Origin: an uncultured Clostridia bacterium
GTDB lineage: Bacteria > Bacillota > Clostridia > Christensenellales > UBA1242
Assembly: GCA_944364445.1 (NCBI GenBank)
Contig: CALVWC010000003.1
Location: forward strand, 1 to 46,087
DNA length: 46,087 bases
Reading direction: 5' to 3'
In this document: in pieces, positions 1,274 through 46,087 of the stretch
Layout: each line of letters opens with the position of its first letter
How positions within the stretch are numbered: position 1 is the stretch's first letter
Notes under the pieces: model-generated
The model's input: the letters and a program-made list of their open reading frames with translations, nothing else
Databases searched by the model: none
Told to the model about the DNA's origin: nothing
Position numbers and translations under genes: made by a program

Positions 1274-1309
1274 CTTATTTTTTACATTTTTTTGGACAAT
1301 ATTATCTTT

Positions 1310-2071
1310 ATGATAGATTTATTAGATGAATGTGGCAAGGATTTAGCGAATTGCGGGTATGAAACAGAAAAACTTGGGAAGTATGAAATCACTTCTTCCA
1401 AACTTTTTATCGACTCCGATGGCAAAGCAAAAAAACTTGGTTTCGATAAGGGACATTATTTTATTCTTAACGCTCCACTTCTTCTTGGGCTGAAAGAAGA
1501 ACATTATAAAATTTTGAAAAATGAGATAAAAGCAAGAGTCAGCGAACTTTTTAAAATTAATAAAGTTAGAAAACAAAGTAAAATTCTTCTTGTTGGAATT
1601 GGAAATCCTGATATAATATCCGATAGTTTCGGCGACGCTGTGATTAAGAAAATTGATATAAAGCCATTTAAGGAAGATAATCATATTTATAAAATTTCGC
1701 CAAACACCTTTTCAAACACTGGTATAAATGCTTATGAAATTATTAGGCTTCTTGTGGAGGCGTTTGACATCTCTTTGGTTATTCTTTTCGATTCGCTTGC
1801 CACAACAAACATTGTAAGGCTTGGCACAAGTGTTCAGTTTAATGACGCAGGGCTGACTCCGGGAAGTGCGATTAATAAATTTGGCATAGCAATAAATTAT
1901 GACAGCTTAAGCGTGCCTTGTTTATCTATTGGTGTGCCTTTTATGATTTCTGCTGGAGATATTTCAAAACATGAGTCGAAGGATTTAATTTTGACAGAAA
2001 AAGACGTGGGTGAGAAAGTGGAGTTTATGTCGGAGGTTGTGGCTGAAGTGTTTAATGATTTGTTGAAGTAG
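1310..2071 (+). CDS. gpr: germination protease GPR (spore endopeptidase, peptidase family A25)
   Basis: GPR degrades small acid-soluble spore proteins during germination. The 253-residue product contains the family core: LLVGIGNPDIISDSFGDAVI (residues ~94-113), an SNTGINAYEII segment and VQFNDAGLTPGSAI (~175-188). D105 and D179 sit where the two essential aspartates of the A25 family are found. The protein is shorter than Bacillus GPR (~370) and the usual N-terminal RTDLA segment is only loosely matched by MIDLLDE. The start is uncertain: ATG at 1310 has no Shine-Dalgarno; an in-frame TTG at 1292 would add six residues that could act as a propeptide. It stands alone, without the usual spoIIP, and its stop codon touches the inverted repeat at 2071. 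Confidence 0.85.
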   Translation: MIDLLDECGKDLANCGYETEKLGKYEITSSKLFIDSDGKAKKLGFDKGHYFILNAPLLLGLKEEHYKILKNEIKARVSELFKINKVRKQSKILLVGIGNPDIISDSFGDAVIKKIDIKPFKEDNHIYKISPNTFSNTGINAYEIIRLLVEAFDISLVILFDSLATTNIVRLGTSVQFNDAGLTPGSAINKFGIAINYDSLSVPCLSIGVPFMISAGDISKHESKDLILTEKDVGEKVEFMSEVVAEVFNDLLK

Positions 2072-2181
2072 GCGGGCGAAAGTGGCTTTTTGCATGAAAT
2101 TTATGTGCAAGTTAAAAAACTTTTGAAGCAAAAAGCCAGCGTGCGAAGCACGCCCATGCCTTGCATGGACTTTCGCCCGCC
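2071..2181. repeat. GC-rich cloverleaf-like inverted repeat element (four-way junction)
   Basis: The outer stem is 13 bp and perfect (2071-2083 with 2169-2181, GGCGGGCGAAAGT and its complement). It encloses three perfect hairpins laid end to end: 2084-2093/2128-2137 (GGCTTTTTGC, 10 bp, with a 34-nt insert that has its own short palindromes), 2139-2144/2148-2153 (GCGTGC, loop GAA) and 2154-2159/2163-2168 (CCATGC, loop CTT). Only one base, A2138, is left unpaired at the junction. The element is far richer in GC than its surroundings and begins on the last base of the gpr stop codon. It lacks a T-run, so it is not a standard terminator. A mobile palindromic repeat (MITE/REP-like) or a structured RNA are both possible. 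Confidence 0.8.
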
Positions 2182-2226: not shown

Positions 2227-2940
2227 ATGAAAAAAGTGCTTTTAATAGACAGTGGCTCAGGCGGAGTAAACATATTAAAAGAATGTGTAAAAATTTGCCC
2301 TTATGCTGATTATCTTCTTTTTTGCGACACAAAAAATCTTCCTTATGGCAGTAAAAGTAAAGAAGAGTTAATTGAAATCACCTTTAAAAATTTGGACGAA
2401 ATTTACACGTTTTTTCCTTACGAAATTGTGATTTTTGCTTGCAACACAATAACCAGCACAGTTATTGAAGAAGCAAGAGCAAAATATTTAAATATCATTT
2501 TTATTGGAACAGTGCCTGCAATTAAACCTGCACTATTAACATATCCACCAAACGAAATTCTTCTTATTGCCACAGAGGCGACAATCAATAACAACAAATT
2601 AATTTCAAAATATCGTGACAGCGGAATAAAATTTTTACCTTTAAACTCTCTTGCTCCACTTATAGATGAAAATTTGGATAATTTACAGGTGTTAAGCGAC
2701 TATGTTAAACAAAACATAACCGGCAAGTTTAAAGCCTTGGTGCTTGGTTGCACACACTATCAAGCACTTGCAAATGTATTTAAATCAAATTTCAAAGATG
2801 TGGAAATTTTTGATAGTGCAAATGGCGTGGCAAGGAGATTGCTTTCGTTCATAAAAAAAGGCGAAGGCTATCAAGTGCAAATTATGTGCAATGATTTTTT
2901 CCTTCGCGATAGGTTTTTGTGGTATTTTTTTAAAAATTAA
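2227..2940 (+). CDS. murI: glutamate racemase
   Basis: It makes D-glutamate for peptidoglycan from L-glutamate in the cytoplasm. The 237-residue protein carries DSGSGG near the N-terminus (residues 8-13), the first catalytic cysteine in FACNT (C72) and the second in LGCTHY (C175), the two-base mechanism of the Asp/Glu racemase family. Length is slightly below the usual ~265, mainly at the C-terminus. There is no Shine-Dalgarno before the ATG; a TATATA box ends 6 nt before it, so the mRNA may be leaderless. The gene converges with the DUF1846 gene and the two stop codons overlap in the shared TTAA. Confidence 0.93.
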   Translation: MKKVLLIDSGSGGVNILKECVKICPYADYLLFCDTKNLPYGSKSKEELIEITFKNLDEIYTFFPYEIVIFACNTITSTVIEEARAKYLNIIFIGTVPAIKPALLTYPPNEILLIATEATINNNKLISKYRDSGIKFLPLNSLAPLIDENLDNLQVLSDYVKQNITGKFKALVLGCTHYQALANVFKSNFKDVEIFDSANGVARRLLSFIKKGEGYQVQIMCNDFFLRDRFLWYFFKN

Positions 2941-9887: not shown

Positions 9888-9929
9888 TTGCATACCACCA
9901 CAAGATGTTGTGTAGTATGCAATTTTTTT
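9888..9929 (+). terminator. rho-independent terminator of plsC (GCATAC palindrome, copy 1)
   Basis: TTGCATAC (9888-9895) pairs with GTATGCAA (9915-9922), with an inner CACCACAA/TTGTGT stem and a GATG loop, then seven T. The sequence is closely related to the reverse complement of the terminator at 32976-33015. Confidence 0.88.
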
Positions 9930-11134: not shown

Positions 11135-11140
11135 GTTAAT

Positions 11141-11266
11141 ATCCATGAAGAGTGTGCGAGGGACAGCCCCTTTGACCACACAGCAACCTAGTTCTTGACC
11201 AAGGTGCTAATGGCTGAGTCGATGGGTAAGAATGGAATTTTAACCCATCAAGTCGATGGGTTTTCT
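11141..11266 (+). promoter_or_regulatory. SAM-I (S-box) riboswitch with intrinsic terminator
   Basis: The sequence contains the S-box landmarks in order: AAGAG, GCGAGGGACAGCCCC, TTTGACC, CAGCAACC and AAGGTGCTAA, with GTGTG/CACAC closing P2 and TCCAT/ATGGA closing P1. A terminator follows: ACCCATC (11243-11249) pairs with GATGGGT (11255-11261), then a T-rich tail. The same ACCCATC can pair instead with GATGGGT at 11221-11227, the antiterminator; the 11-nt AGTCGATGGGT occurs at both 11217-11227 and 11251-11261. High SAM should stop transcription before metK, 43 nt downstream. Confidence 0.93.
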
Positions 11267-32887: not shown

Positions 32888-32975
32888 TTTGTTTTAATAA
32901 TTGATTTATTGGAATTAAAACGCCCATTAAAAATTCAAGAATATATTTAAAATCAACATTTTGTTGTGTTTAATT

Positions 32976-33015
32976 TGCATACTACACTAGATTTTGTGGT
33001 GGTATGCATTTTTTT
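32976..33015 (+). terminator. rho-independent terminator of ftsY (GCATAC palindrome, copy 2)
   Basis: TGCATACTAC (32976-32985) pairs with GTGGTATGCA region (32999-33008, two G-T pairs) and runs into seven T. Its reverse complement is closely similar to the plsC terminator at 9888-9922. The rest of 32888-33196 is AT-rich; it contains the sigK promoter region near its right end. Confidence 0.85.
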
Positions 33016-35617: not shown

Positions 35618-35960
35618 GTCAGTCAGACAAATGGTCGCGTGTTATCGACTACCGATGACACGAGGAAAGTCCGAGCATCAAAAGAACAGGGTGCTAGTTA
35701 ACGGCTAGTGAAGGCGACTTTAAGGATAGTGCAACAGAAATAGACTGCCAAGTTTTCTTGGTGATGGTGGAAAGGTAGGGTAAGAGCCTACCGAAAGTTT
35801 GGTGACAAACTTTGCTCTGTAAACCCCACCCGATGCAAGGTTAAGTTTAGGCGACGGCGTTCTTTCCTGCCTAACAAAAATACCGCTTGATTTTGTTGGT
35901 GACAGCAAAACTAGATAGATGACCATTTGAAACAGAACTCGGCTTATAGTCTGGCTGATA
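35618..35960 (+). ncRNA. rnpB: RNase P RNA
   Basis: The ~343-nt RNA has the universal core: GAGGAAAGTCCGAGC near the 5' end, the GATGGTGGAAAGGTAGGG/GTAAACCCCACCCG region in the middle and ACAGAACTCGGCTTATAG near the 3' end (the two sides of P4). The P1 helix is formed by GTCAGTCAGAC (35618-35628) and GTCTGGCTGAT (35949-35959). It is the catalytic RNA that matures the 5' end of tRNAs. It is flanked by its own promoter and terminator. Confidence 0.96.
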
Positions 35961-35964
35961 ATTT

Positions 35965-45734: not shown

Positions 45735-46087
45735 TAACGTTAGAGTTTGATCCTGGCTCAGGACGAACGCTGGCGGCGTGCTTAAAACATGCAAGTCGAA
45801 CGAATAAATTGTTAGCACAAAGATGTCTAGAGAAAATTCCATTACACACATAAAACAATTTTTAATTTTGCGAGGGGAAGGGCTTAGCCCGGCGAGCACA
45901 AATTAAAAATCACACACGTGGAAGAGGATTGGGAAGAGAAACCGACGAAGTAGCGGTTAGGATATGAAAATATCCGTGTCCGCCTAAAGCGAAGTTGGTG
46001 TCTGTCCCAGATAGGCGTTTTTGTGCTGACAATTTGTTAGTGGCGGACGGGTGAGTAACGCGTGAACAATCTGGCTAACACAGGGGG
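45735..46087 (+). rRNA. 16S ribosomal RNA, 5' part, with long V1 extension
   Basis: AGAGTTTGATCCTGGCTCAG begins at 45742 (E. coli position 8), so the mature 5' end is about 45735. The conserved GGACGAACGCTGGCGGCGTG and CATGCAAGTCGAACG follow, then about 240 nt of unusual sequence before AGTGGCGGACGGGTGAGTAACGCGTG (46039 on). In most bacteria these two blocks are 40-60 nt apart. The gene runs off the window at 46087. Confidence 0.97.
45803..46038 (+). other. extended V1 (helix 6) insert in 16S
   Basis: 45803-45821 pairs with 46020-46038 along 19 consecutive pairs (two G-U), which extends helix 6. Inside are ~198 nt that can fold further: ATTTTTAATTTTG with CAAATTAAAAAT, a GGGCTTAGCCC palindrome and GATATGAAAATATC. 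Confidence 0.88.

Follow-up and report, generated by a model that had tools for sequence, protein, structure and literature searches.

The DNA at positions 2071-2181 of the window (the whole stretch of 46,087 nucleotides analysed here) is a member of an unnamed class of bacterial DNA elements, which keep the shape of a cross while their sequence changes. By our own estimate, with slightly less than an even chance, they are best read as shape-defined and probably non-autonomous mobile palindromic DNA, the arms of which would be kept matched, and sometimes flipped, via fold-back copying. Whereas most interspersed repeats are found by sequence, the conserved property is here the fold.

On the forward strand, the element is closed by a 13-bp outer stem formed by GGCGGGCGAAAGT (2071-2083) and ACTTTCGCCCGCC (2169-2181), which encloses three perfect hairpins of 10, 6 and 6 bp meeting at a junction with a single unpaired base, A2138. 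Arm 1 pairs 2084-2093 with 2128-2137 and carries a terminal loop of 34 nt (2094-2127), variable in length and sequence among copies and orthologs. Arm 2 (2139-2153, GCGTGC-GAA-GCACGC) pairs 2139-2144 with 2148-2153 and covaried among copies, while arm 3 (2154-2168, CCATGC-CTT-GCATGG) pairs 2154-2159 with 2163-2168. This layout, with its coordinates, had been proposed in a preliminary description and held in every part. An RNA fold of 2061-2191 reached -58.9 kcal/mol, corresponding to a z score of -6.47 against 200 dinucleotide shuffles (mean -36.0), none of which was equally stable. The upstream neighbour is the germination protease gene gpr (1292-2071, forward strand; Pfam PF03418), of which the TAG stop codon ends at 2071, its last base being also the first base of the outer stem, as had been noted. 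This overlap is considered incidental because the gpr stop of a sister species ends a few bases upstream of the element. Downstream lies an Asp/Glu racemase-like gene (2227-2940, forward strand), presumably murI, with a Pfam score of 27.3, below the 31-bit cut-off. No T-run follows the element at 2182, in agreement with the earlier view that it is not a terminator. At gathering score, Rfam returned no family for this element nor for nine loci of relatives, and the four matches obtained at a permissive threshold were all far under the cut-offs of their families.

Genomes are designated here by G numbers (G000, the element's own genome; G089, its sister species; the others, further genomes) and loci by L numbers. 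A DNA search of G000 already returned further copies. Covariance model R1, built from 15 copies, located 11 distinct places in G000 and 11 in G089, the 15 and 16 raw matches, respectively, including opposite-strand matches at the same places. Flanking DNA paired up all 11 loci of both genomes as orthologs, C2 and C13:18754 through one flank only (the G089 copy of C2 lies 264 bases from a contig end); no recent jump was seen between the two genomes, all 11 loci being common to both. At two of the 11, divergent variants were found, in which the outer stem and arms differed in sequence but still paired, and the terminal loop of arm 1 ranged from 30 to 67 nt among clean parses. The arm 3 stem was identical across the 15 copies of alignment A1 and differed at G089 C1:327845, one of seven further copies outside A1. 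In A1, six of the 35 pairs had changed on both sides (reached by 6 of 500 shuffles) and the covariation score was above those of all 500 shuffles; the count of further pair types was not, 372 of 500 shuffles being as high. Identity between G000 and G089 at 10 loci was 97.0 % in stems, 86.7 % in loops and 88.7 % in flanks, and gap columns made up 0.3 %, 13.9 % and 11.3 %, respectively. Stems that differ less than loops and flanks are easier to reconcile with selection, or with paralogs being copied onto one another, than with unconstrained drift of paired bases. The exact sequence family of G000, searched in genome contigs by the pattern of arm 3 and outer stem, matched G089 only (seven stretches); it was encountered neither in viral contigs nor in phages or plasmids.

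R1 also displayed weak matches in four other species of the genus, giving at least six of 112 genomes altogether; when folded, the five loci concerned took the form of crosses that shared the plan but differed in their arms. A strict descriptor (perfect outer stem of at least 9 bp, three or four perfect hairpins, at most three unpaired bases) matched 19 times in 837 kb, that is, 10 times in 398 kb of G092, eight times in 392 kb of G000 and once in the window. It did not match in 3.95 Mb of first-order Markov sequence simulated from the same stretches, so that, as suspected from the outset, the nested pairing exceeded chance on this count as well as by its z score. Two of the 19 matches involved tRNA genes and were set aside; in both the tRNA-Gln gene (L135:10087-10194, G000:C17) and the tRNA-Ser gene (L115:1370-1523, G092:C19), an adjoining fold-back complementary to part of the tRNA forms a similar cross. 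Within 1.22 Mb of sequence from the genus, three hairpins were found in 23 matches (including both tRNA cases and two long-loop ones possibly due to chance), two in five matches (not inspected) and four in none, against no match in 3.67 Mb of simulated DNA. No cross was detected in 334 kb from 20 genomes of the order's other families.

A second model, R2, was derived from six divergent elements by model-guided alignment, which replaced a useless MAFFT alignment and in which two of eight rows were misregistered. At E <= 0.05 it matched in at least 23 of the 112 species of the genus, and all 21 newly fetched loci folded as three-hairpin crosses, although R2 itself favours such folds. Among 396 genomes of the order, at least nine were matched: seven from this genus, one from another genus of the same family (G351, where the locus is a clean cross) and one doubtful (G137), a distant match which folded only partly as a cross and was not counted. 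Where more than 40 genomes were searched, filters were stricter and the number of candidates scored was capped, which makes these species and genome counts lower bounds. A relaxed fold scan was not relied on, as it gave 10 control matches (five of them three-branched) in simulated DNA; the analysis rests on the strict scan, which misses real members such as that of G065 described below, and on covariance-model matches. The preliminary description had asked for copies with compensatory changes. These were found, with 11 copies in G000, the distribution just given and double changes at an orthologous site (see below); a solitary copy with no pairing conserved in relatives was clearly not what the genomes contained.

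Single genomes displayed one shape with largely different arms. G102 harbored at least 10 elements, one of them loose, with blast matches between elements mostly confined to arm 1 and to portions of arm 3 and of the outer stem. Elements of G092 matched each other little beyond their AT-rich arms, except for one related (paralogous) pair recognised by inspection. A search for repeats that relied only on sequence would overlook many elements of either genome. A tentative reading, clearly short of an even chance, is that the identity of the class lies in its shape, a near gap-free cross which would be propagated between sites and kept matched and flipped by fold-back copying at the replication fork. 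If this is true, several crosses of largely dissimilar sequence can coexist in one genome.

The anatomy of the class was described from a fold-based list of 57 elements, reduced to 54 from 21 genomes by removal of two chance-like cases and one tRNA; 53 could be parsed. It is a working list and not a census: some known copies failed its filters, and it was partly selected for near-perfect pairing. Elements were about 75-150 bp long, with a GC-rich outer stem closing three side-by-side hairpins, the first of which was AT-rich; they were oriented by placing the more AT-rich outer arm first, and the middle arm was the most AT-rich in only two of 53. Median lengths were 11 bp for the outer stem (range 9-16), 11 bp for arm 1 and 7 bp for arms 2 and 3. 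The junction held zero to two unpaired bases in 42 of the 53. Of the 44 elements outside G000, AAATTTT stood at the beginning of arm 1 in 33, and the outer strand carried AAG close to its inner end in 29. Judged by their sequences, members of the class have common motifs besides a common shape.

These motifs bear on the idea that nothing moves and that a replication process repeatedly builds and perfects compound palindromes locally in AT-rich spacers. One genome holding different sequences in the same shape would be expected from it, the two tRNA genes with adjoining fold-back copies form such crosses too, and arms are near-perfect in Watson-Crick pairing. However, AAATTTT and AAG at these frequencies, together with the 11 related copies of G000, point to common descent, and two-hairpin crosses were rarer than three-hairpin ones. 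We consider purely local construction unlikely.

Evolution in place was followed in a spacer between genes which we take to be rnc and smc. The cross was present there in six of the 24 species examined and absent in the other 18; a strict rescan detected five of the six carriers and none of the 18 others, the sixth (G065) having been found by R2. With helices registered by hand, the six species provided 36 pairs, of which 12 were variable and 10 had changed on both sides, with only two of 216 pair cells unpaired and no G-T. When the 3' letters were shuffled 5000 times, a procedure that ignores relatedness, pairs changed on both sides numbered 3.4 and unpaired cells 18.3 on average, and the observed values were never reached. 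Both unpaired cells were C-A on the counted strand and G-U on the other, which is the gene-sense strand there. Stems were 75-99 % identical between species, about as much as the start of smc (84-88 %), which indicates that pairing rather than letters was kept. Conservation of stems above that of their surroundings was thus a property of the G000/G089 comparison and not of the rnc-smc set.

Other loci were compared in the same manner. The orthologous pair formed by L099 of G092 and L155 of G105 had flanks 77-80 % identical and, by inspection, two double changes from C-G to T-A. L213 of G030 and L217 of G061 displayed collinear flanks and a cross in both, with the same outer stem and different arms; it looks as if the interior had been exchanged. 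Downstream of a gene presumed to be rplS, which precedes the element in G092 and G098, an element was present at four of the 28 loci (of 30) where the gene end was located. After gpr, the element was absent in all 10 relatives scanned. In G061, the spacer after gpr (L095) contains a series of short hairpins, set apart from each other by units resembling CCTTCACTG. No insertion or excision event was caught in the genomes compared.

A simple ORF caller placed 37 of the 54 elements between tandem genes, 11 between convergent and one between divergent genes, five being unassigned. Facing gene 3' ends lay within 10 nt of the element in 19 of 63 cases and facing 5' ends in one of 40 (an overlap). 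This nearness to stop codons and the 11 to 1 excess of convergent neighbourhoods are what would be expected of an element acting in RNA, as a multi-hairpin 3' UTR stabilising or terminating transcripts from either side. A T-rich stretch (at least six T in the next 10 nt) following nine of the 37 tandem copies, and the two rnc-smc cells reading G-U on the gene-sense strand, point in the same direction. On the other hand, 12 of the 25 tandem copies situated at least 28 nt after the stop already had a terminator-like hairpin with T-run (by our own criterion) between stop and element, the remaining 12 of 37 being closer than 28 nt. Orientation relative to tandem genes was mixed (16 sense, 21 antisense), and G-U pairs made up about 1 % on both strands, with 14 of 1334 pairs in helices proper on the gene-sense strand and nine of 1329 on the other (counted over 36 of the 37 tandem elements, one being skipped). 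Selection of the list for perfect pairing lowers both counts and should neither create nor hide a strand difference. An apparent strand bias in a first count (32 sense, 15 antisense) had included long-loop pairs and was dropped, 14 against nine in helices only giving p 0.40. Since G-U pairs were about equally rare on the two strands and orientation was mixed, a property of double-stranded DNA is favoured. With Rfam silent as well, the strand-specific structured RNA envisaged in the preliminary description is not favoured, and a role at RNA 3' ends appears improbable.

The strongest rival at the DNA level is a structure used by the host. The cross would be bound by a protein that recognises junctions or cruciforms, for architecture, supercoil relief or gene spacing, and the pairing would be maintained by selection. 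Both-sided changes kept the rnc-smc pairing across species with smc 5' ends 84-88 % identical, G000/G089 stems exceeded their flanks (97.0 % against 88.7 %), no strand was preferred and the junction was nearly gap-free in most parsed elements, all of which would suit such a use. Copy number and sites differed strongly between species, however, so that no single site looks essential genus-wide; the rnc-smc stems changed about as fast as the neighbouring genes, and no binding protein is known. A structure used by the host seems rather unlikely to us, albeit the most serious of the competing explanations.

Mobile palindromic DNA copied by fold-back would account for a further observation. At the rplS locus, the flanks of G092 and G098 are collinear (82.9 % over 1813 nt and 75.7 % over 1052 nt) while the element is inverted (86.2 % over 87 nt); it was flipped in place between these two genomes. 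For copy C2, the right flank in G000 corresponds to the left flank in G089 and the element has the opposite orientation, which could be a flip or, the arms differing, an independent second insertion. Orientation differed at these two of the 16 orthologous loci compared (11 of G000/G089, rplS, rnc-smc, the G092/G105 pair, G030/G061 and the G106/G133/G096 set), and flips are thus rare.

Under the preferred reading, the elements would spread as non-autonomous mobile DNA, with a putative enzyme recognising the folded single strand by its shape and by the outer-stem and AAATTTT motifs. The strand may fold at the replication fork and lead the polymerase to switch template between the two sides of a stem. 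Such a switch would copy one arm onto the other, so that arms would stay complementary while their sequence drifts; at the outer stem, it would flip the interior. Kept complementarity and an in-place flip would both be explained by template switching on a folded strand, and it is from them that we infer the copying mechanism. Small inversions associated with hairpins occur in chloroplast DNA. For nematomorph mitochondria, the available portion of PMC6649704 puts forward template switching to explain perfect inverted repeats whose arms change together; arms there likewise stay identical while sequence varies between species, but those repeats are described as long hairpins inside coding genes, with no repeated multi-hairpin architecture.

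Mobility is suggested by interspersed copies, by presence and absence among species and by paralogs. Of the three options raised in the preliminary description, a mobile palindromic repeat was the best; movement itself is deduced from presence/absence and dispersed paralogs and was not seen. The proposed link with a RAYT or IS200-type transposase was not borne out. The Y1 transposase domain (PF01797, the only profile used in the transposase search) matched in seven of 61 genomes and seven of 24 carriers and was not associated with the element, leaving 17 carriers without a match. In carriers, it was full-length without a stop in G065, full-length with an in-frame stop in G032 and only partial in five, that of G000 being a broken fragment at a contig end. 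None of the 54 elements was flanked by a direct repeat of six bp or more; repeats of five bp were found in four elements (1.5 expected by shuffling) and of four bp in eight (4.9 expected). Old target duplications may have decayed. The MITE traits of short terminal inverted repeats and many copies were present (outer stem of 9-16 bp, 11 copies in G000). DNA and model searches of G000 returned only short copies, and no parent insertion sequence of the elements was found.

REPINs, MITEs and organelle hairpin elements are the nearest kinds, and none of them, as far as the available parts of the sources describe them, has the closed three-hairpin plan. In a REPIN, a pair of inverted REPs forms a single long hairpin; a highly conserved 16-mer and a RAYT belong to the system (PMC3116915, in part). 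Crosses resemble REPs and REPINs, as presented there, in being intergenic palindromes that form hairpins in single strands, with compensatory changes in the spacer, and probably in being non-autonomous. They differ from that partial account by three hairpins closed by a fourth stem into a four-way junction instead of one hairpin, and by the lack of any such long conserved word shared between species; the REPIN-RAYT association also contrasts with the 17 carriers devoid of a Y1 match. Like MITEs, as outlined in the accessible text of PMC10969869, crosses are short and intergenic, have a terminal inverted repeat (the outer stem) and include some copies related in sequence. Unlike the MITEs of that text, they contain three internal hairpins, show no detected target duplication or parent insertion sequence, and have arms which stay paired through sequence change at an orthologous site. 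Short palindromic repeats of Volvox organelles are likewise small, compact, intergenic hairpin DNA, thought to be selfish and able to nest, but these are organellar and form sequence-defined families, and a closed four-way cross is not described in the part of PMC2670323 at hand.

Double-hairpin elements, known from organelle DNA, consist of two tandem hairpins, whereas the cross has three hairpins and a closing stem and lies in a bacterial genome. No description of the closed three-hairpin plan was found in the literature searched, which left subscription papers mostly aside; neither an inverted-repeat survey (PMC13155455) nor an account of stem-loop families (PMC2267715) mentions such a plan in the sections available. 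The class offers natural experiments on the upkeep of palindromes in genomes, on cruciform flipping in living cells and on recognition of mobile elements by shape. These questions are directly testable, because orthologous copies changed on both sides of their stems and one case of flipping in place are already available.

Several minor observations were made in the window and around the crosses. Positions 1-565 form a tandem repeat in a 9-base register, encoding a low-complexity ORF that is collagen-like by eye and has no Pfam match. Rfam identified a SAM riboswitch (11140-11228), a class A RNase P RNA (35619-35962) and the start of a 16S rRNA gene (45735-46087). The genus has another family of palindromes, TGTGTAGTATGCA...TGCATACTACACA, with members at 9889-9925 and 32972-33008, after gpr in L089, L092, L094, L095 and L096, and in the vicinity of several G000 and G089 crosses. 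By eye, a stretch of about 45 nt resembling CCCGCACAAGCAAAATTTAAAACACAAACTTTTTTCACGC follows several crosses (G000 C12, C5 and, more weakly, C11; G089 C7:25829), and at G000 C5:10339 it is inverted and placed on the opposite side.
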